Shown piece after piece: positions 55,239 through 64,000 of a DNA stretch of 64,000 nt. The stretch's first letter is position 1. Each line of letters starts with the position of its first letter. The stretch comes from Synechococcus sp. NOUM97013. Its GTDB lineage: Bacteria > Cyanobacteriota > Cyanobacteriia > PCC-6307 > Cyanobiaceae. The stretch covers positions 310,001 through 374,000 of the forward strand of contig NZ_CP047941.1 of assembly GCF_014279815.1 (NCBI RefSeq). The letters run 5' to 3'. The position numbers were made by a program, and so were the translations under genes. Under the pieces are notes generated by a model that searched no databases, was not told the DNA's origin, and was given only the letters and a program-made list of their open reading frames with translations.

Positions 55239-56375
55239 TTAAGACAGATCCACGACGAAGCTCAGTGGTTCAACCGAACCATCACCATCGGGATAGTTGG
55301 CGAAGCCCACCACTTGATCGGCATAGATCGAATTGGCAGTGCTGAACACGCTTTCAATGTCGGTTCCGCTTTTCATGATGTCGAGGGTGTTCCACTCCGC
55401 TGCTTCCTTGAAGGCACCGCTGCGATCGCGTTCAATGGTTGCCACTGAGGCGATTGCCAGTTCTTCGTCACCGTTCAGATCTACCGATGTCGCAGGGAGG
55501 TGATAGGCCCCATCGTCGTCGCGATAAATTCCTTCGAAGTGAGTGATTAGATCGGCACCATCTTGTTCGTTGTTGTAAGAAAAAGTTTGATAATTAAAAA
55601 ATCGTCCTGTAATTGAGTCGTAGTCAATTAAGTAGCCATCACCAATTGCGAGTTTGTCATCTTTTGAGTCGAGGACTGAGCCGCTTCCTCCGGCAATTGT
55701 GTAAAACCGTTTGTTGTTCTGCCAGATGCCATAGGCGGTATGCGTGACCAGAGGATTGCGATCTCCTGGGAAGCGAATGAATGATTGTTGTCCGCTTTGA
55801 AGGTCGACGAGAAAAGCTGTGGATTTCAAGCTGAAATATCCTGTTCTTCCGTCGCGATCCGCCTCGTCGGCATTGCCAACGGCCAAGCCACCGTCCACGG
55901 AGTGGACAAAGGTGTAGGTCGCGCGTTGCCTGGACTTGGTGATGCCTTGGATGGCGTTCCATCCACGGATGGTGGAGCCGTCCGATCGTCCGGCATACGT
56001 GAACCCCACAACCGCCGGATCGAAGGGGTTCGGGCTGCCCTCGGTGTCTCTGGTGAAAGCGCCCACGTAATTGACCCGGTCAACCCCCGGAAGGCGATCA
56101 GGCCCGTACACGCTGGTGCCAGCAGCTTCGAATCGCTCAGGGATGGAAACGATGGACCATCGCCCTGATCCGCTTACGCCGTTGGATTGCGCCGCGTCCA
56201 AGGGGCCTTGATAGGCCAGGCCGACGGGATTGGGGCCCGACGAGTTATTCGCGCCGACCAGCAAATAGCTGTTGTCTGTCTCGCCGCCTTTGATTCCCTG
56301 TAAGTAAGTGACGACCTCAGGCGAAGACCCTGGGTTGTACTGAAAGGGCGAGATGGTTGATTCAGGCTTGGTCAT
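55239..56375 (-). CDS. unrecognised protein with internal beta-rich repeats
   Basis: A 378-residue protein without a signal peptide or membrane helix, starting MTKPESTISPFQYNPG. At least four segments of about 55-65 residues share a pattern of the form T-x(2)-S/G-[IVY]-x(5,8)-[VI]-[GA] plus a later hydrophobic-VDL-like strand: 155-196 (TFVHSVDGGLAVGNAD), 211-257 (THTAYGIWQNNKRFYTIAGG), 278-317 (THFEGIYRDDDGAYHL) and 345-377 (STANSIYADQVVGFAN). This suggests a beta-propeller or a similar repeat fold. Around 55560-55700 the sequence is clearly AT-richer than its neighbours, hinting at transfer. The 180 bases upstream are also AT-rich. I do not know its function. Confidence 0.7.
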   Translation of the reverse strand: MTKPESTISPFQYNPGSSPEVVTYLQGIKGGETDNSYLLVGANNSSGPNPVGLAYQGPLDAAQSNGVSGSGRWSIVSIPERFEAAGTSVYGPDRLPGVDRVNYVGAFTRDTEGSPNPFDPAVVGFTYAGRSDGSTIRGWNAIQGITKSRQRATYTFVHSVDGGLAVGNADEADRDGRTGYFSLKSTAFLVDLQSGQQSFIRFPGDRNPLVTHTAYGIWQNNKRFYTIAGGSGSVLDSKDDKLAIGDGYLIDYDSITGRFFNYQTFSYNNEQDGADLITHFEGIYRDDDGAYHLPATSVDLNGDEELAIASVATIERDRSGAFKEAAEWNTLDIMKSGTDIESVFSTANSIYADQVVGFANYPDGDGSVEPLSFVVDLS

Positions 56376-56557
56376 TGCAATCCACTCGCCACTTGTTGAT
56401 CTTGGCGTCTGTTGTTCAAATCCTTGCGTTCCTCAATGTTTTTTTAGAATTCATCGAGTCATGGCTTGCTGGTTAATTAGAGAGGCATTTGTTTCATGAT
56501 TGTGCTGTCAGTTCAGGCGGTTGTTGTTGCTTCTCTATGTAGCCTTGTCAGGATGAA

Positions 56558-57199
56558 ATGAATACGGTTGTCGCTCCCGTCGCCGATATGTCCATCGCCA
56601 AGAATTTCCCAGCTCTCCCTCAATCCTTCTTTTGCTGCCCCGCAGAAGTTGTCGGACCTGGCTTGGTGGGCTGCAGGTTGGTGAAACGCCAAACAGACGG
56701 CAGCCTGCTCTGGGGTGTGGTGGTGGAAACGGAGGCGTATTCCCAGGATGAGCCCGCCTGTCACGGCTATCGCCGCCGTTCACCGCAGAACGAAACCCTG
56801 TTCGGTGAGCCAGGGCGGTTCTATGTGTATGTCAGCTATGGCATCCACCACTGCGTGAATGTGGTGACGGATCGGGCTGAATGGGCGAATGGCGTGTTGC
56901 TGCGAGCGGTGGCGCTCCCGGATGAACCCGAACGGGTGGCGGCAGGGCCTGGATTGCTGGCGCGCCGTTTTGGCATCGATCGCCAGCGTGATGCCTGTTC
57001 GGTTTGTGGTGAGCATGACCTGTGGCTGGCGCCGCGCACTGCCGCACTGATGGATCCCGTGTTGACCACCACCACCCGCATCGGTATTTCCCAGGGGCAA
57101 GCGTTGCCCTGGCGCTGGTATCTGCAAGCCAGCCGCAGTGTGAGCAAGCGTGCGCGCGGCGATCGTTCCCCGAAGCCTGCTGATGCCTTCCGACCGTGA
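56558..57199 (+). CDS. 3-methyladenine DNA glycosylase (AAG/MPG family)
   Basis: A 213-residue base-excision repair enzyme of the mammalian-type AAG family that removes alkylated purines. Motifs are [19 protein letters not shown], the catalytic [20 protein letters not shown] with Glu in [23 protein letters not shown] and [15 protein letters not shown]. The start is the ATG at 56558 or the one ten codons later; both leave the domain whole. The C-terminus is short and basic. pyrB follows 60 bases downstream. Confidence 0.9.
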
Positions 57200-57259
57200 T
57201 GAGGCGTGGGCGGACGCGCGATGGGCCTCTACGGTTAATAGCAGTGATCGGACGCCCAG

Positions 57260-58300
57260 TTGAGCGCCTGGACCCACCGTCACATCCTTGATCTTGCGGA
57301 TTTCTCCCGTGAGGATTTCGCCATGGTGCTGGAGCTGGCCCATCGCTTCAGTTCAATGCCAGCGACGGGTGCCAGAAGACTGCCGGCCCTGCAGGGTCGG
57401 CTCGTCGCCACGTTGTTTTTCGAGCCCAGCACCCGCACGCGCAGCAGCTTTGAGTTGGCGGCGAAGCGTCTTTCAGCAGATGTGTCCAGTTTTTCGCCGT
57501 CCAGCAGTTCGCTGAGCAAAGGCGAGTCGCTGCTGGATACCGCCCGCACGTATGTGGCCATGGGGGCGGATGTGCTTGTGGTGCGTCATCGCTGCACCGG
57601 TGTTCCTCGTCAGCTGGCGGAAGCATTGGAACGTACCGGTGAACGCACGGTGGTGCTCAATGCCGGTGACGGCCTGCACAGCCACCCCAGTCAGGGTTTG
57701 TTGGACCTTTACACGCTCGCTCATTACTTTGACCCCAAAAATCCGTTGCCTGAGGCACTGCGCGGGCGTCGCATTGTGATCGTGGGTGATGTGCTCCACT
57801 CCAGGGTCGCGCGTTCCAATCTCTGGGCGCTTAGCGCCTGCGGCGCGGATGTGGTGCTTTGCGGGCCCCCCAGCCTTGTTCCGGAGGCCTTTGCCCATTT
57901 CCTCGATGCGCCGCCGCCTGGTCAAACGCAGGATCCGGTGTCGCAACGCGGTTCACTCACGCTCAGCCGGGATCTCGATGCTGCACTCGTGGGAGCGGAT
58001 GCTGTGATGACGCTGCGCTTGCAGAAAGAACGCATGCGCCAAAACATGCTGACCGATCTCGATCGCTACCACCGCGATTACGGACTTACCCATGAACGGC
58101 TGCGGCGCAATGGGTGCAGCATCCCTGTGCTGCACCCAGGGCCTGTGAACCGGGGGATCGAGATGAGCGGCGCTCTGCTCGATGACCTGAACGCCAATCT
58201 TGTGGAACGTCAGGTCAGCAATGGCATCCCGATCCGTATGGCCCTGCTCTATTGGATGGCGGCTGCTGAATCCGCGCTGGATCCGCCGTCAGTGGTTTGA
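57260..58300 (+). CDS. pyrB: aspartate carbamoyltransferase catalytic subunit
   Basis: A 346-residue ATCase for the first committed step of pyrimidine synthesis. Motifs are [20 protein letters not shown] (carbamoyl-phosphate site), [20 protein letters not shown] and [20 protein letters not shown]. The start is a TTG at 57260 giving [19 protein letters not shown], which fits the family. The 3' end overlaps the convergent NADH dehydrogenase gene by 52 bases. Confidence 0.95.
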
Positions 58301-59754
58301 GTGGACCGGCCTGACACCTGGTTGGAGTAGTAATCCATTGCTGCGCGGAGCGCAGCTCCGGGTTCGGCAATCGAGGGACCTGTCTCGGGAGCCATCGGGA
58401 ACGCGGCATCCGGTGCATCCAACCCCATGTGCTGGCTGGGCATCCCTGTGAGCAGCATGGAGGCACGGTCCTGTGACACCACCGCAAACATCCACTTGAC
58501 GAGCAGGGTCACGCGGTTTTCCCGGGTGGGCATGAAGGCCAGGTGGGCCGCTGCCCACAGCAGCCACCCGATGCCGCCTTTGAATTTCAAGCCCCGCAGG
58601 TCAGCGACGGCATCGATGCGGTCGAGCACTGCCATGCTGCCGAAATCAAACCAGCTAAAGCTGGGCCGTGCCGTCCCGGCCACGATGGCGGCGATGTCTT
58701 TGCCGACGAATCCACCGGCCTGGGTGGCCGGTCCCGCCATGCCAGGTAGCGGCTTGCCATCACGTGTGTGCTTGTAGCTGCAGAGGTCTCCCACCACGCG
58801 AATCTCGGGATGCCCAGCCACCGAGAAGTCGGGTTCCACCACCACACGGCCGGCGCGATCGGTCTCACAGCCGACGGAATCGGCCAGCTTGCGTCCCAGA
58901 TGAGAGGGGCGCACACCTGCGGTCCAGATCACGGTGGCGGCTTGCAGGCGCTGATCACCGTCGGGTGTCCCTACAACCACCTCGCCGGGTTGCATTGCTT
59001 GCACCCGGCCTTTGAACAGAAACTCAACGCCGAGATCGCTGAGCGATGTTTGCGCTGCTTCGGAGAGTTGTTCCGGCATGGCGCGCAGCACCCTTTCGCC
59101 AGGATCCACAACCACGATTCGGGTGTCAGCTGGATCCAGTTGTCGGAATTCCTTGCGCATGGCATTGCGCATCAATTCCGAGGTGGCACCGGCCATCTCG
59201 CAGCCTGTGGGGCCACCACCAACAATCACTACTGTTTGTAGGAAGCGCCGAGCTTGCAGATCGGGAGTCTGTTCGGCCTGTTCCATGGCCATCAGCAGAC
59301 GCCGCCGAATCTCTTCGGCATGTTCGAGGATCTTCATCGGTGGCGCAAAGGTGCGCCAGTCCTCGTGGCCAAAATAGGTACTGCCGGACCCTGTGGCCAT
59401 CACCAGGTAGTCATAGCCATAGGTTTTGCCGTTGAAGACGATCTGCTTGCTGTCGGTTTTGATCTCGGTCACTTCCCCGAGCAAAACCTGCACATTGCGC
59501 TGACGTCCAACAAGCTGGCGGAGCGGTGTGGCGACATCACCTCGCGAAACCAGCCCTGTTGCCACTTGATACAGCAAAGGTTGGAAAAGGTTGAAATTGC
59601 GTTTGTCGATCAGAGTGACTCGAACGTCAGCCTGAGCTAACGCTTTGCAGGCCCGCACGCCTGCAAAGCCACCACCAACGACCACCACATGGGGAGCTTC
59701 GCGCAGACGCTCTTCAGGTGGCTCCAGCTCGAGGAAGAAGTGCTCTCCAGCCAT
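58249..59754 (-). CDS. type II NAD(P)H dehydrogenase (NDH-2)
   Basis: A 501-residue flavoprotein that oxidises NAD(P)H and passes electrons to plastoquinone without pumping protons. Two Rossmann sites are seen: [20 protein letters not shown] near residue 22 for FAD and [20 protein letters not shown] near residue 172 for NAD(P)[21 protein letters not shown] and [19 protein letters not shown] are the FAD and quinone-side motifs. The C-terminal extension of about 60 residues is Ser/Gln-rich. It overlaps pyrB tail to tail. Which of the cyanobacterial NDH-2 types it is cannot be told from sequence alone. Confidence 0.92.
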
Positions 59755-59834
59755 GGATGCATCGGCGGCGGGTTTGTTTGCAGCGTATGGATGCCAATCC
59801 GATTTGTCTGCGCTTTTCGCAGCACTCTCGACTT

Positions 59835-60176
59835 TCAGAGAAGTTTGAAACCTTCCAGCAGCAGCCCATACAGCAGGCCGATTCGCGTCATGTCGAGCAG
59901 TTGCCGGCCAAGGTGACTGCGTTTGTCGCGTGCCCAGTGGCGACGCACTCGCACCATCACTTCCATCAGTCCCACGCTGAGCATGGCGGCCACGGGGTCC
60001 ATAAGGCCCAGGCTGCCTGAGATGGAGGCAATGCCGTTGCCGATCATGAAACTGCCTGTCAATGCAATCAGCAGCAACGACGCTCGGCGCCAGGGGTTAG
60101 TCGCCCAAAGATCCAGTCGGGTCGAAGCATCGCCGACGCTGCGCTGGAGACGTGTGGATTGGAGGCGCGCTGTCAC
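59835..60176 (-). CDS. Ycf20/DUF565 family membrane protein
   Basis: A 113-residue protein with three helices, including LLLIALTGSFMIGNGIASIS and LMDPVAAMLSVGLMEVMVRV, preceded by RLDLWATNPWRRASL. This is the Ycf20 pattern, a protein of cyanobacteria and plastids that in algae and plants is linked to non-photochemical quenching. I start at the GTG at 60176, which has GGGGGAG about 7 bases before it; the frame is open 25 codons further but without signal. Confidence 0.78.
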   Translation of the reverse strand: MTARLQSTRLQRSVGDASTRLDLWATNPWRRASLLLIALTGSFMIGNGIASISGSLGLMDPVAAMLSVGLMEVMVRVRRHWARDKRSHLGRQLLDMTRIGLLYGLLLEGFKLL

Positions 60177-60313
60177 TAAGAGACTCCCCCACAAAAGGGG
60201 CAGGGAAGACAACCGATGATCCCCATCACCCGGCCCTTGCCCTGCCAGCAAATGTATACACCATTTATGGCGTGTATGCCTTTATCAAGCGCTACATATT
60301 GGGGCTTTTTATG

Positions 60314-60338
60314 AAAAAAGCCCGGAGAATCTCCGGGC
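60314..60338 (-). terminator. terminator of the small-gene transcript
   Basis: On the minus strand GCCCGGAG-ATT-CTCCGGGC is followed by TTTTTT. It lies 66 bases beyond the stop of the 66-residue gene, the last of the run of small genes. Confidence 0.9.
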
Positions 60339-60403
60339 CGGATGATGGGGACTGGCGAAGGAAAGCCCGAACAGTCCCGTTCTACAAGGGGGGTGTTTCC
60401 GGG

Positions 60404-60604
60404 TCAGTCGGATTCGGCTTTAGCTTTGCGGGAGCTCTTGCCTTCGAGAAGTTCAAGCAACGCTTCCATTTGGGCCATCACGCCACGCACCTCTCCGGCC
60501 TCTGGCAGCAGGCCATCTTCCATCACGCCTTGATGCATTTCGCGCAGTTCCTGGCGGATATAGCGCAGGTGGCTGACGACCTGTTCGCGTTTCGACTGAG
60601 ACAT
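60404..60604 (-). CDS. small hypothetical helical protein, 66 residues
   Basis: Starts MSQSKREQVVSHLRYIRQEL at the ATG at 60604 and continues GVMAQMEALLELLEGKSSRK. It is charged, with two likely amphipathic helices and no membrane segment. I do not recognise it. A good terminator follows, which supports an expressed gene. It is third of three small co-directional genes. Confidence 0.6.
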   Translation of the reverse strand: MSQSKREQVVSHLRYIRQELREMHQGVMEDGLLPEAGEVRGVMAQMEALLELLEGKSSRKAKAESD

Positions 60605-60670
60605 CAATCGTGGCTTTCTCAGCCTCTCTTTTACCGCATGGCCTGATCCTGCGGACCCATTCGCTGAACA

Positions 60671-60823
60671 TCAGCGGCGCGCCAGCCCTCCAGCCAGCAG
60701 GATCAGGCCATAGGTGAGCAGTGCTGATGGACGCATCAACACTGATAAAAAGGTGGTCATTGTCAACGCGCTCAGCAGCACCGGTCGGATCGAACGTCGG
60801 TAGCTGGTCAGAGAGCGTGCCAT
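60671..60823 (-). CDS. small hypothetical membrane protein, 50 residues
   Basis: MARSLTSYRRSIRPVLLSAL, then helix-like TMTTFLSVLMRPSALLTYGL and ILLAGGLARR. A basic N-terminus and two short hydrophobic helices suggest a membrane hairpin. It starts 3 bases after the stop of the PCP_red gene, so the two are almost certainly translated together. The family is unknown. Confidence 0.55.
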   Translation of the reverse strand: MARSLTSYRRSIRPVLLSALTMTTFLSVLMRPSALLTYGLILLAGGLARR

Positions 60824-60826
60824 CAC

Positions 60827-60988
60827 TCAGCGTTGTGCAAATTGTGCGCGGGCTTCGGCATAAAAAGCAGCATCGATGCATTCGAGCTGACGTTCCTTTG
60901 CCATGGATTCAATTCTTCGCCGTACGGCGGGACGCACGAAGAATGGAACTTCCTTGAGTGATTTTTCTGCTTCAGCGCTCCAGTTCAC
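60827..60988 (-). CDS. stand-alone PCP_red-domain small protein
   Basis: A 53-residue protein from a GTG at 60988: NWSAEAEKSLKEVPFFVRPA, then VRRRIESMAKERQLECIDAA and FYAEARAQFAQR. The core A-x(5)-L-x(2)-[IV]-PFFVR-x(3)-R-x(2)-IE is the signature of the PCP_red domain (protochlorophyllide reductase C-terminal region of ChlB). Here the domain is the whole protein, as in small cyanobacterial PCP-reductase-family proteins. A TGA directly precedes the GTG, and GGA sits about 8 bases before it. It is followed at 3 bases by a membrane protein gene. A role in pigment binding is plausible but unproven. Confidence 0.75.
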   Translation of the reverse strand: MNWSAEAEKSLKEVPFFVRPAVRRRIESMAKERQLECIDAAFYAEARAQFAQR

Positions 60989-61008
60989 TCAGTTCCAACC
61001 ATCCTCGA

Positions 61009-61081
61009 TGGAGAATAGGGGATTCGAACCCCTGACCTCTGCGGTGCGATCGCAGCGCTCTACCAACTGAGCTAATTCCCC
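61009..61081 (-). tRNA. tRNA-Ala (anticodon CGC)
   Basis: A 73-base cloverleaf on the minus strand: acceptor GGGGAAT with ATTCTCC, D arm GCTCAGTTGGTAGAGC, anticodon loop ATCGCAC with anticodon CGC, T arm with GTTCGAATC and discriminator A. CCA is not encoded. Anticodon CGC reads only GCG, which fits a GC-rich genome. Confidence 0.94.
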
Positions 61082-61127
61082 GCGCAGCGCAACTTAGCGC
61101 CTGTGTTTGCGATCTTCTGGGGGCAGG

Positions 61128-61355
61128 ATGGATGAAAGTTCCAACGTTTGGATGCCGATTACACCGGAGCGACTGGCCGCCTTTGATGAAGTCTCGGTGG
61201 CAACGTTGGCGCGTCGTCTTGAAGACGACGACTATCCGACGCCGTTTGAGGGCCTCGGTGATTGGCATCTGCTCAGGGCACTTGCGATTCACCGTCCGGA
61301 ACTCACGGCTCCCTACGTCCATCTGATCGATCAGGAGCCCTTCGACGAGGACTGA
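61128..61355 (+). CDS. DUF2555 family protein
   Basis: A 75-residue acidic soluble protein, starting MDESSNVWMPITPERLAAFD. The block LARRLEDDDYPTPFEGLGDW, then HLLRALAIHRPELTAPYVHL, is the DUF2555 signature, a small family restricted to cyanobacteria with unknown function. It ends 5 bases before coaBC and is likely in one transcript with it. Confidence 0.82.
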   Translation: MDESSNVWMPITPERLAAFDEVSVATLARRLEDDDYPTPFEGLGDWHLLRALAIHRPELTAPYVHLIDQEPFDED

Positions 61356-61359
61356 AGCG

Positions 61360-62622
61360 ATGGAGGGTCTGCTTAAGGGGCGACGGATTTTGGTGGCGGC
61401 CTGTGGAAGCATCGCCGCAGTGAAGACGCCGCTGCTGGTCAGTGCGCTGGTGAAAGCCGGGGCTGAGGTGCGTTGCGTGGTCACCCGAAGCGCGGCTGAG
61501 TTGGTCAGCCCAGTGGCGTTGGCCACTCTCAGTCGTCAGCCCTGCCTGCAGGATGCCGACCAGTGGGATGCCGCAAGACCACGGCCGCTCCACATCGAAT
61601 TGGCGGAATGGTCTGAGCTGGTGATCGTGGCTCCGCTGAGTGCGTCATCGCTGGCTCGTTGGGTTCACGGTGATGGTGAGGGGTTGTTGGCCAGTCTGCT
61701 GTTGGCCTGCGAATGCCCAGTGCTGGCCGCCGCCGCCATGAACACCGCGATGTGGCAGCACCCGGCCGTACAACGCAACTGGCTTCTCTTGCAGGACGAC
61801 CCTCGCGTGTTGCCCCTGCAGCCCGAAGGTGGGTTGCTGGCGTGTGATCGCATTGGCACCGGCCGGATGGCGGATCCAGGTCAGATTGAACTGGCTGCGG
61901 CCAGTGTCCTGCTGCAGTCGAATGCCGAAGGCACCATCGCCAGAGATTGGCAAGGACGCCATGTGGTGGTGAGTGCCGGTCCAACCCAAGAGGGGCTGGA
62001 TCGCGTTCGTGTGGTGTCCAATCGCAGCAGTGGCCGAATGGGGGTTCTGCTGGCCCAGGCTGCTCGCCTTCGAGGTGCCAGCGTTGATTTGGTGCATGGC
62101 CCGCTGCAGGTGCCTGTCTCTTGGCTTGAGGGGCTGCATTGCCATCCTGTTCAGTCGAGTGCAGCGATGGGTGACTGTCTGGACCAGCTCCAGCCCTCTG
62201 CCGATGCGGTGTTGATGTGTGCGGCAGTGGCGGATCTGCGACGTGCCGAGCCTGAGGACCCTGTTGATCCCAAGTTGCCAAAAGATTTGCTGCTGCAAGC
62301 AATGGAGAGCGGTTGGGAGCTGGTCCCGGATCTGCTCAGGCGGTTGGTGGATCGCCGCCCCGAAGGTCAGCTCATGCTGGGTTTCGCCGCCTTGGCTGGA
62401 TCCGAAGAGCAGCTGCTTTCCGGTGGTCGCGAGAAGTTGCTCGCGAAAGGGTGTGATCTGTTGATGGTCAATCCCATCGATCGTCCTGGCCAGGGATTCG
62501 AGAGTTCACAAAACGGCGGCTGGCTGCTGGGACCCGCCGATCAGGCTGAGGCGTGCGCCCCGCAACACAAGCTCGCTCTTGCGCACCACCTGCTGAATCG
62601 CCTTCGTCGCTTGGCGGCTTAG
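61360..62622 (+). CDS. coaBC: bifunctional phosphopantothenoylcysteine synthetase/decarboxylase
   Basis: A 420-residue two-domain enzyme of coenzyme A synthesis. The N-terminal CoaC flavoprotein domain has ILVAACGSIAAVKTPLLVSA, His in PLHIELAEWSELVIVAPLSA, the PXMNXXMW-type AAMNTAMWQHPAVQRN and the clamp GGLLACDRIGTGRMADPGQI. The C-terminal CoaB domain has VVVSAGPTQEGLDRVRVVSN, RSSGRMGVLLAQAARLRGA and AAVADLRRAEPEDPVDPKLP. In CoaC the usual SANT motif is changed to SASSLARW, a minor oddity. The start at 61360 is close behind DUF2555. Confidence 0.93.
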   Translation: MEGLLKGRRILVAACGSIAAVKTPLLVSALVKAGAEVRCVVTRSAAELVSPVALATLSRQPCLQDADQWDAARPRPLHIELAEWSELVIVAPLSASSLARWVHGDGEGLLASLLLACECPVLAAAAMNTAMWQHPAVQRNWLLLQDDPRVLPLQPEGGLLACDRIGTGRMADPGQIELAAASVLLQSNAEGTIARDWQGRHVVVSAGPTQEGLDRVRVVSNRSSGRMGVLLAQAARLRGASVDLVHGPLQVPVSWLEGLHCHPVQSSAAMGDCLDQLQPSADAVLMCAAVADLRRAEPEDPVDPKLPKDLLLQAMESGWELVPDLLRRLVDRRPEGQLMLGFAALAGSEEQLLSGGREKLLAKGCDLLMVNPIDRPGQGFESSQNGGWLLGPADQAEACAPQHKLALAHHLLNRLRRLAA

Positions 62623-62924
62623 GCGGCCATATCAGCGGGGCCTTGATCGAGAAGATCAATGAATGTGCGCAATTGCAACCGCGGGATGTAAGGCCATCCG
62701 CCACTGCGTTCCATGGTCTGCAGCAGGCCGAAAAGCTTCTGGCGATCTTCTGGGAGGCTGGCCCGGAATGCGCCGTCTTGGAGCTCCCGATGCAGTGCTT
62801 CGAGCTCCCGCAGCAGCATCAGCAATGTTTCCGGGTCACCCCGGTGCTCCTCTGACAGCTCACGCAGCTGATCGAGCATCGGCTGCAGTGTGTTGTGAAT
62901 GGATTGGGTGCCGTTGCTCTCCAC
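62619..62924 (-). CDS. hypothetical protein, about 101 residues
   Basis: A Leu/Glu-rich helical protein containing MLDQLRELSEEHRGDPETLL, MLLRELEALHRELQDGAFRA and the C-terminal GWPYIPRLQLRTFIDLLDQG. The start is uncertain: GTG at 62924 is chosen because the frame upstream runs into the psbO leader; an ATG at residue 15 is also possible. It is convergent with coaBC and overlaps it by 4 bases, and is divergent from psbO. The family is not recognised. Confidence 0.6.
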   Translation of the reverse strand: MESNGTQSIHNTLQPMLDQLRELSEEHRGDPETLLMLLRELEALHRELQDGAFRASLPEDRQKLFGLLQTMERSGGWPYIPRLQLRTFIDLLDQGPADMAA

Positions 62925-63042
62925 CGAGAACGCTTCACGTTGTTGAGACGTGCAAAAGGCTAGCCGGAACGGCTGTTTGCCCCTTGTAGGATCCGCCAAA
63001 CCGGTGGATACCTTCATCGTCCGGCCTTTGGGCATCTCCTCC

Positions 63043-63864
63043 ATGCGCTTCCGTCCCCTGCTGGCCTTGGTGCTGGCTTTCTGTCTCACCTTTGTGACCG
63101 CCTGCAGCGGCGGTGCTGACGCTGTCGAACGTGCGAATGTCACGTACGACGACATCCGCAACACAGGCAAGGCCAACGACTGCCCCACCCTGTCTGATTC
63201 CGCTCGCGGCTCTATCGCTCTCACTCCTGGCAGTGCTTACGAACTCCGTGGCATCTGCATGCACCCCACCCAAGTGTTCGTGAAGGGTGAGCCTGCAAAC
63301 AAGCGTCAAGAAGCCCAGTTCATCGAGGGCAAGATCCTGACGCGTTACACCTCCAGCCTCGATGAGGTCTATGGCTCTCTCGTGGTGGGTGAGAACGGCA
63401 TCGCCTTCCAGGAAGAGGGCGGCATCGACTTCCAGCCCATCACCGTTCTCGTCCCCGGCGGTGAGGAGTTCCCCTTCACCTTCTCAAGCAAGAACCTGCA
63501 GGCTGAAGCCGAAGGCGCTGCCATCACCACCAGCACGGACTTCGAGGGCACCTACCGCACCCCCAGCTACCGCACCAGCAACTTCATCGATCCCAAGGGT
63601 CGTGCCCTGACCACAGGCGTCGACTATCCCCAGGGTCTGATTGGTCTGGGTGGCGACTACAAGGAGCTGGAGACTGAAAACGTCAAGCGATACATCGATG
63701 GTCAGGGTGTGATGAGCCTCTCCATCACCAAGGTGGATCCTGAAACCGGTGAATTCGCCGGTGTTTTCTCCGCCATTCAGCCTTCCGACTCCGACATGGG
63801 TGGTCGTGAAATCGTTGACGTCAAGATCAACGGTGAGCTGTTTGGTCGTCTTGAAGAGGCCTGA
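63043..63864 (+). CDS. psbO: photosystem II manganese-stabilizing protein PsbO
   Basis: A 273-residue lumenal extrinsic PSII subunit. The N-terminus MRFRPLLALVLAFCLTFVTA then CSGGADAVERANVTYDDI is an export signal ending near a Cys that resembles a lipobox, as in other cyanobacterial PsbO. Conserved parts are NTGKANDCPTLSDSARGSIA, VKGEPANKRQEAQFIEGKIL, TRYTSSLDEVYGSLVV, and the C-terminal FAGVFSAIQPSDSDMGGRE. It stabilises the Mn4CaO5 cluster. The ATG at 63043 is preferred over earlier starts in the frame. A strong terminator follows. Confidence 0.97.
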   Translation: MRFRPLLALVLAFCLTFVTACSGGADAVERANVTYDDIRNTGKANDCPTLSDSARGSIALTPGSAYELRGICMHPTQVFVKGEPANKRQEAQFIEGKILTRYTSSLDEVYGSLVVGENGIAFQEEGGIDFQPITVLVPGGEEFPFTFSSKNLQAEAEGAAITTSTDFEGTYRTPSYRTSNFIDPKGRALTTGVDYPQGLIGLGGDYKELETENVKRYIDGQGVMSLSITKVDPETGEFAGVFSAIQPSDSDMGGREIVDVKINGELFGRLEEA

Positions 63865-63906
63865 TTCCAGGTTGGGCTGACCCGTCTCTAGCGATGGGTC
63901 ATTGGC

Positions 63907-63930
63907 AAGGGGGGCACAGCCCCCCTTTTT
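63907..63930 (+). terminator. rho-independent terminator of psbO
   Basis: AAGGGGGGC-ACA-GCCCCCCTT followed by more T, starting 43 bases after the psbO stop. The remaining 70 bases to the window end show no gene that I can support. Confidence 0.92.
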
Positions 63931-64000
63931 GATGTCTTGATGTCGGATGCCGGTCTTCACGCTGCGGTCTGGGAGAATCGCGCCGATATCCCTCCGCTCC

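Follow-up and report, generated by a model that had tools for sequence, protein, structure and literature searches.

A gene for a stand-alone PCP_red microprotein of 53 aa is present at 60827..60988 (−) in the window, the whole 64,000-nt stretch of the Synechococcus sp. NOUM97013 genome that was analysed. We tentatively propose, at a probability of roughly 0.35, that its product is a free-standing chlorophyll-synthesis adaptor that mimics the C-terminal domain of ChlB, the B subunit of light-independent protochlorophyllide reductase (DPOR). The stronger leads at this locus are the probable tRNA-coupled start of the gene and a near-invariant 66-aa protein, named HEL66 here.

The structure of a stand-alone PCP_red protein, Asr4154, has been solved since 2010 (PDB 2L09), and a literature search on it and on other free-standing PCP_red proteins turned up no paper bearing on function, as judged by title. 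The window offers a compact case for testing a free-standing PCP_red, beside the even more conserved and nameless HEL66. Both proteins are presumably small enough for annotation to skip them or to leave them hypothetical.

A free-standing PCP_red gene under purifying selection

The 53-codon frame starts with GTG, includes EVPFFVRPAVRRRIE, and encodes a protein with a pI of 9.1. The Pfam profile of PCP_red (PF08369) matches it over 45 of 45 profile positions and scores 60.7 bits where the cut-off is 32.5 (E 1.4e-16), which is far beyond chance. When the 2.55-Mb single-contig genome was scanned as a whole at E 0.001, PCP_red was matched twice, by this frame and by ChlB, which is a separate frame of 595 aa. 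The model for the full-length ChlB/BchB subunit, TIGR01278, aligns to the 53-aa frame at its positions 463-511 only and scores 36.7 bits against a cut-off of 490.35, so that the frame is not a full-length ferredoxin:protochlorophyllide reductase subunit B. As in other stand-alone cyanobacterial PCP_red microproteins, a short ORF holds the domain without the catalytic part and lies apart from ChlB. Its counterparts in the class genomes read are mostly 51-72 aa long.

The frame is under purifying selection: of the 19 further loci fetched from the genus, 17 were compared with the window copy (the broken L146 and L152 were left out) and gave pN/pS of 0.04-0.32. Synechococcus WH 7803 has an orthologue at L204, 5001-5168 (record CT971583.1). 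The start codon is followed by N, D, or E and then by W in 36 of 39 readable orthologues (49 loci, the window copy included, were given, and 10 were missed by the pattern), the exceptions being L016, L035, and L040. GTG or TTG replaces ATG as the start at same-genus loci only. The single broken copy, that of L146, contains two in-frame stops next to open TM50 and HEL66 frames (see below); this assembly is in 110 contigs, and the stops may be an assembly error. With the complete domain match, the kept start, and a frame that is open and selected in relatives, the GTG-started gene called by the first-pass annotation is near certain to be real.

Distribution and two types of stand-alone copies

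Free-standing PCP_red is an already known kind of protein, found in most of the sampled oxygenic cyanobacteria. Among 387 class genomes at 97% completeness or higher, PCP_red is matched in 380, once in 122 of them and two or more times in 258, which leaves 7 without a match; a few double counts from split or duplicated ChlB are possible. Because ChlB accounts for one match, most class genomes carry PCP_red beyond that of ChlB. In a sample of the phylum, 112 of 244 genomes have a match, which exceeds the Pfam cut-off in 111. One listed match lies outside the photosynthetic class (G232, E 3.9e-4), and it would be the one below the cut-off.

Within the window's genus, stand-alone PCP_red was counted by hand in 22 of 31 genomes, including the window's own and the L146 copy with stops. 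Another 8 have ChlB without it, and one genome, 58% complete, has neither. A wider sample of the family has a non-ChlB match in 43 of 121 genomes by our reading of the list. Most open frames of the family copies are shorter than 250 aa; that of L043, with 494 aa, stands in the usual gene order. In another genus (g18), the genomes of 1.5-1.7 Mb each have ChlB and a single PCP_red match. Stand-alone PCP_red is dispensable, since these genomes and the 8 of the window's genus have ChlB without it.

Stand-alone copies are of two types. Type A, to which the window copy belongs, reads ...PFFVRPA.RKKIEKFA..., and type B, which is Asr4154-like, reads ...ARLEFGQ. In a tree of 84 domains, built from a short alignment for which the program warns of few columns, ChlB (branch support 100/100), type B (99/98), and picocyanobacterial type A (97/82) each occupy one side of a branch, and the remaining type-A rows do not. 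Because they separate from ChlB in this short-alignment tree, the stand-alone copies look like an old family rather than recent fragments. Loci L079-L118 and L126-L130 were hand-picked among the short-frame PCP_red matches listed; L130 groups with ChlB in the tree and is counted as neither type. No constant neighbour of type-A copies was found in the loci read outside the window's family.

In 5 of 17 type-B loci, the copy begins 92-271 nt downstream of a psbC-like gene of the same strand; these five (L106, L109, L114, L117, and L127) come from four families, and the psbC identity was confirmed with TIGR01153 in three of three tested among them. At two loci, L108 and L113, a type-B copy follows a KaiC-like gene, recognised by eye, by 2 and 38 nt. 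In G372, psaA/psaB are present only as broken pieces, and ChlB and a stand-alone PCP_red are kept. In G342 of the same genus, psaA/psaB, ChlB, and the stand-alone PCP_red are all lost (loci of the two genomes: L259, L263, and L260).

Predicted fold

AlphaFold2 predicts three helices for the microprotein with a pLDDT of 88.6, in the fold of solved PCP_red domains. The best PDB matches, by sequence and by fold alike, are 2L09 (Asr4154) and 2KRU (the C-terminal domain of BchB), and these two are the only VIA-align rows with Z of 8 or higher. Foldseek aligns the model to 2L09 with E 5.3e-04, a TM-score of 0.84 by query length, and an rmsd of 1.5 Å (VIA-align Z 8.6), and to 2KRU with E 8.0e-04 and an rmsd of 0.9 Å (Z 9.5). 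The gene product would accordingly be modelled as a small soluble three-helix protein with the PCP_red fold of the ChlB C-terminus.

The model also resembles AAA+ lid-like RuvB with a VIA-align Z of 7.9, at 1.5 Å over 52 residues. Because of this likeness to AAA+ lid domains, a partner unrelated to pigment is conceivable; the microprotein would then be a general small helical adaptor, and the name PCP_red would merely tell where the domain was first seen. The lack of conserved neighbours of type A outside the window's family would also fit such an adaptor. However, the significant family matches of the microprotein are to PCP_red and ChlB/BchB models solely, its occurrence in the sampled phylum is restricted to the photosynthetic class, and middling Z values are common for small helical models, so that the RuvB likeness may reflect only a common arrangement. 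We hold a general adaptor to be distinctly unlikely.

A tRNA gene immediately upstream

A tRNA-Ala(CGC) gene, absent from the first-pass annotation, lies at 61009..61081 (−) as detected by ARAGORN and by Rfam (RF00005, 69.5 bits), being the only pass of an Rfam gathering score in 56000-64000. Its 3′ end is 20 nt upstream of the PCP_red start codon. Among 80 named loci, the best 80 of 208, the same tRNA is upstream in 68 at gaps from 3 to 3650 nt by ARAGORN, and in 31 of these 68 the gap is 35 nt or less. In four of the best 80 (L237, L240, L250, and L252), the tRNA is 3-4 nt from the ATG, the smallest gap being 3 nt by ARAGORN, or 4 nt when the tRNA end is set at the A that ends it in the window. 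Of the 19 further loci fetched from the window's genus, 18 have a gap of 20-25 nt; no tRNA was found within the 1.5-kb flank of L152.

Because a gap as short as the 20 nt of the window leaves little room for a promoter and a leader, we infer that the PCP_red transcript probably runs through the tRNA-Ala(CGC) gene or starts at a promoter inside it. The same message would likely continue through TM50 and HEL66 to the terminator. A scan of 59700-61400 found no sigma-70-type promoter, and such a scan says little for cyanobacteria.

A precedent by analogy for tRNA-coupled transcription here may be that of PSHCP, a picocyanobacterial protein unrelated to PCP_red. In the report on it (PMC4215834), its gene is placed between rpl19/tRNA-Trp and tRNA-Asp/gltX, and most of its transcripts are traced to a predicted promoter within tRNA-Trp (81.1% in WH 8102 and 74.9% in MIT 9313 by RT-qPCR), with some co-transcription with the tRNA. 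It is conceivable that tRNA-Ala(CGC) serves as a message leader in picocyanobacteria, so that its trimming or an internal promoter would set the output of PCP_red as a chlorophyll-synthesis adaptor and of HEL66 as a near-invariant, family-specific regulator, but we regard this whole scheme as a long shot. At the four loci with a 3-4-nt gap, a message trimmed in this way would have almost no leader.

The region that follows tRNA-Ala(CGC) is anywhere from 3-4 nt to 3.65 kb long (L119, L120, L182, L224, and others) and has the look of an insertion spot. Neither L119 nor L120 has PCP_red, and their tRNA is about 1.2 kb and 3.4 kb, respectively, upstream of TM50, with a 250-aa frame in between in L119.

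TM50, HEL66, and a terminator-like hairpin

Downstream on the minus strand, the first-pass annotation had placed a 50-residue membrane protein, a 66-residue helical protein, and a terminator, and all three were found. The gaps are 20 nt from the tRNA to PCP_red, 3 nt from PCP_red to TM50, and 66 nt from TM50 to HEL66, after which the hairpin comes. TM50 is a hydrophobic ORF of 50 aa at 60671..60823 (−), with its ATG at 60823. HEL66 occupies 60404..60604 (−). The intrinsic-terminator-like hairpin at 60319..60339 (−) has 9 pairs, 7 of them GC, followed by a T run.

TM50 is weakly constrained, with pN/pS of 0.14-0.76 in 13 comparisons; 6 of the 19 loci were unscored, as their motif differs from the C-terminal RPSALLTYGLI.LAGGL.RR of close relatives. 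It matches 22 of 121 family genomes, and searches of Pfam and NCBIfam (E up to 1) and of PHROGs (E up to 0.1) assigned it to no family.

No other protein of the locus is as conserved as HEL66. It was found in 28 of 29 loci compared aside from the window's own, with 90-98% identity, and is lacking in L037. At the 29 compared loci, identities are mostly 67-83% for IsiD, 59-70% for CoaBC, 53-73% for PCP_red, and 44-59% for Ycf20 over longer segments. The pN/pS of HEL66 is 0-0.05 at dS of 0.4-1.6 in 18 same-genus comparisons. Because pN/pS is this low while synonymous sites are well changed, the constraint is on the protein.

A HEL66 profile matched 14 of 145 class genomes, all 14 in the window's family and with no other family among the matches listed; the first-listed genomes with zero matches belong to other families, and 111 further genomes have zero. 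In the phylum sample, HEL66 is present in 24 of 244 genomes, again all of the window's family. Some family genomes carry up to three copies, the extra ones lying elsewhere with 35-60% identity.

AlphaFold2 predicts HEL66, whose pI is 5.7, to be a helical hairpin with helices at residues 5-29 and 33-54 (pLDDT 87.2). HEL66 is without a family name: searches of Pfam, NCBIfam, and PDB gave no match above cut-off, the PDB sequence search being empty up to E 1, and Foldseek gave no match to the model at 0.001. Several candidates were rejected. Bacteriophage protein K and DUF6674 reach E 0.007-0.03, below the curated cut-offs, and 14-3-3 and Rop reach Foldseek E 1 or worse, which says only ‘helical hairpin’. 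PSHCP, as described in PMC4215834, is set apart from HEL66, which has a pI of 5.66 and different neighbours. A phage origin was likewise rejected: a tblastn search of 50,697 phage records (E 0.01) with PCP_red and HEL66 gave no match, HEL66 has no confirmed relative in viral contigs, and the PHROGs matches were weak (E 0.014 and 0.099). The available portions of two small-protein papers (PMC5126843 and PMC7760959) contain nothing on the proteins of this locus.

A plausible operon, a doubtful functional unit

Among the best 80 of 208 named loci, 79 have HEL66 downstream of PCP_red on the same strand, at a distance of 45-243 nt and with 90-100% identity, so the order is indeed conserved in relatives. 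With a stricter hairpin script, a terminator-like hairpin was found after HEL66 in 10 of 27 loci, among them that of the window, and the interval from PCP_red to HEL66 had one in none of the 27. The 3-nt and 66-nt gaps and the hairpin after HEL66 agree with one transcript. From the sequence, then, an operon of PCP_red, TM50, and HEL66 is plausible.

The first-pass annotation had suggested a three-gene operon of tiny proteins, and of this suggestion the tight run of three coding microgenes and the kept order stand. Joint action of the three products does not follow. Although the conserved PCP_red-HEL66 order and the lack of a hairpin between the two would favour products working together, we find one functional unit highly doubtful. 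A tblastn search, which could have missed diverged copies, revealed TM50 in no more than 8 of the best 80 of 208 named loci. TM50 and HEL66 are kept where PCP_red is broken (L146) and in all four genomes inspected among the 8 same-genus genomes without a stand-alone copy. In genus g5, PCP_red is found alone at another place (L123-L125), and the tRNA, TM50, and HEL66 are still together (L054, L056, and L057). Moreover, order is broadly conserved here, CoaBC, IsiD, and Ycf20 included, so that order alone says little.

The outer neighbours are as follows. Beyond the terminator is a Ycf20-like gene at 59835..60251 (−), matching PF04483 (DUF565 in Pfam) with E 9.6e-14, for which we use the name ycf20 as the first-pass annotation did. 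Of the 76 loci among the best 80 of 208 that offer 1500 nt or more on this side, 72 have it downstream. Further beyond is a pyridine nucleotide-disulphide oxidoreductase frame, for which the NDH2_C match is below cut-off and which we call NDH-2-like. On the other side, a divergent gene with the NCBIfam name IsiD lies at 61128..61355 (+) (NF050006, 97.4 bits against a cut-off of 90; PF10742, E 5.9e-27), with ATG 61128 chosen as its start in the longest frame from 61107. Of the 72 loci among the best 80 of 208 that offer 1500 nt or more on that side, 62 have IsiD upstream. CoaBC is likewise divergent on the plus strand. The Ycf20-like gene, lying past the terminator-like hairpin, is probably a unit separate from the PCP_red run. 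An earlier idea of a pigment or photosystem unit with ycf20 is weakened in this respect, and what is left of it is the indirect tie of the PCP_red domain to chlorophyll synthesis.

A record titled as a Bifidobacterium breve metagenome bin (CALPNT020000071.1) carries the Synechococcus-like order of tRNA, PCP_red, HEL66, and Ycf20, and it is probably mislabelled.

Possible function in chlorophyll synthesis

The tie of the domain to chlorophyll synthesis is indirect. It draws on the family matches to PCP_red and ChlB/BchB models solely, on the restriction of the domain to the photosynthetic class in the sampled phylum, on the joint keeping (G372) or loss (G342) of ChlB and the stand-alone copy, on the type-B copies behind psbC, and on a tendency of PCP_red to be lost with ChlB. 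No PCP_red at all was found in 6 of 10 class genomes without ChlB (E 1e-100) vs 1 of 377 with ChlB (Fisher p 3e-10), a count that is partly circular as it takes in ChlB's own domain. The other four ChlB-less genomes keep one or two PCP_red matches (G248, G354, G656, and G674). One match of G248, a 530-contig assembly, is a genuine stand-alone copy (L110), and those of the other three are possibly split ChlB genes in fragmented assemblies. Because 4 of the 10 retain PCP_red matches, a strict DPOR partner is disfavoured.

As a chlorophyll-synthesis adaptor, the microprotein would bind where the ChlB C-terminal domain binds, its target being either the ChlN-ChlB tetramer or a protein that accepts the tetramer's (proto)chlorophyllide. 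Bound there, it could tune late chlorophyll synthesis or hand on the pigment. The available portions of PMC7948495 and PMC12518044 hold nothing useful on the role of the ChlB C-terminal domain in DPOR.

Alternatively, the microprotein could be a photosystem assembly or chlorophyll-insertion factor that loads pigment into reaction-centre proteins such as CP43, and not a partner of DPOR. The sister type B being directly behind psbC in the five loci of four families would fit this role, as would the confinement of the domain to the photosynthetic class. On the other hand, G372 keeps ChlB and a stand-alone copy despite its broken psaA/psaB, no photosystem gene was recognised by eye beside type-A copies, and the small g18 genomes, which should be photosynthetic, are without a stand-alone copy. 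We rate such a factor as rather unlikely and keep the chlorophyll-synthesis adaptor as the tentative reading.

Comparison with known systems

Asr4154 of Nostoc sp. PCC 7120 (PDB 2L09) is likewise a free-standing PCP_red, a 62-residue chain with the same fold as predicted for the window protein and a sequence match of E 3.4e-07. The two are 33% identical by Foldseek. By reading of the alignment, Asr4154 differs in being of type B, with the ...ARLEFGQ end and ARSQAKAR, whereas the window protein has VRPAVRRR.

The C-terminal PCP_red of ChlB/BchB (PF08369; PDB 2KRU, 2YNM, and 8VQI) is akin to the window protein in the full-length domain match. Identity with the window protein is 38% for 2KRU by Foldseek and 44% over 49 residues for ChlB of the same genome. 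In ChlB/BchB, however, PCP_red is fused to the catalytic nitrogenase-like part, whereas the window protein is free. ChlB domains mostly read FVRGKVRRN or FVRGKVKRN, where stand-alone type-A copies have FVRPA.R..I.

PSHCP resembles HEL66 in being a tiny, near-invariant picocyanobacterial protein encoded in a tRNA-adjacent cluster, as described in PMC4215834. It differs from HEL66 in that the same paper gives it a predicted pI of 11.3 and a helix with four small β strands, whereas HEL66 has a pI of 5.7 and is predicted to be a hairpin of two helices.
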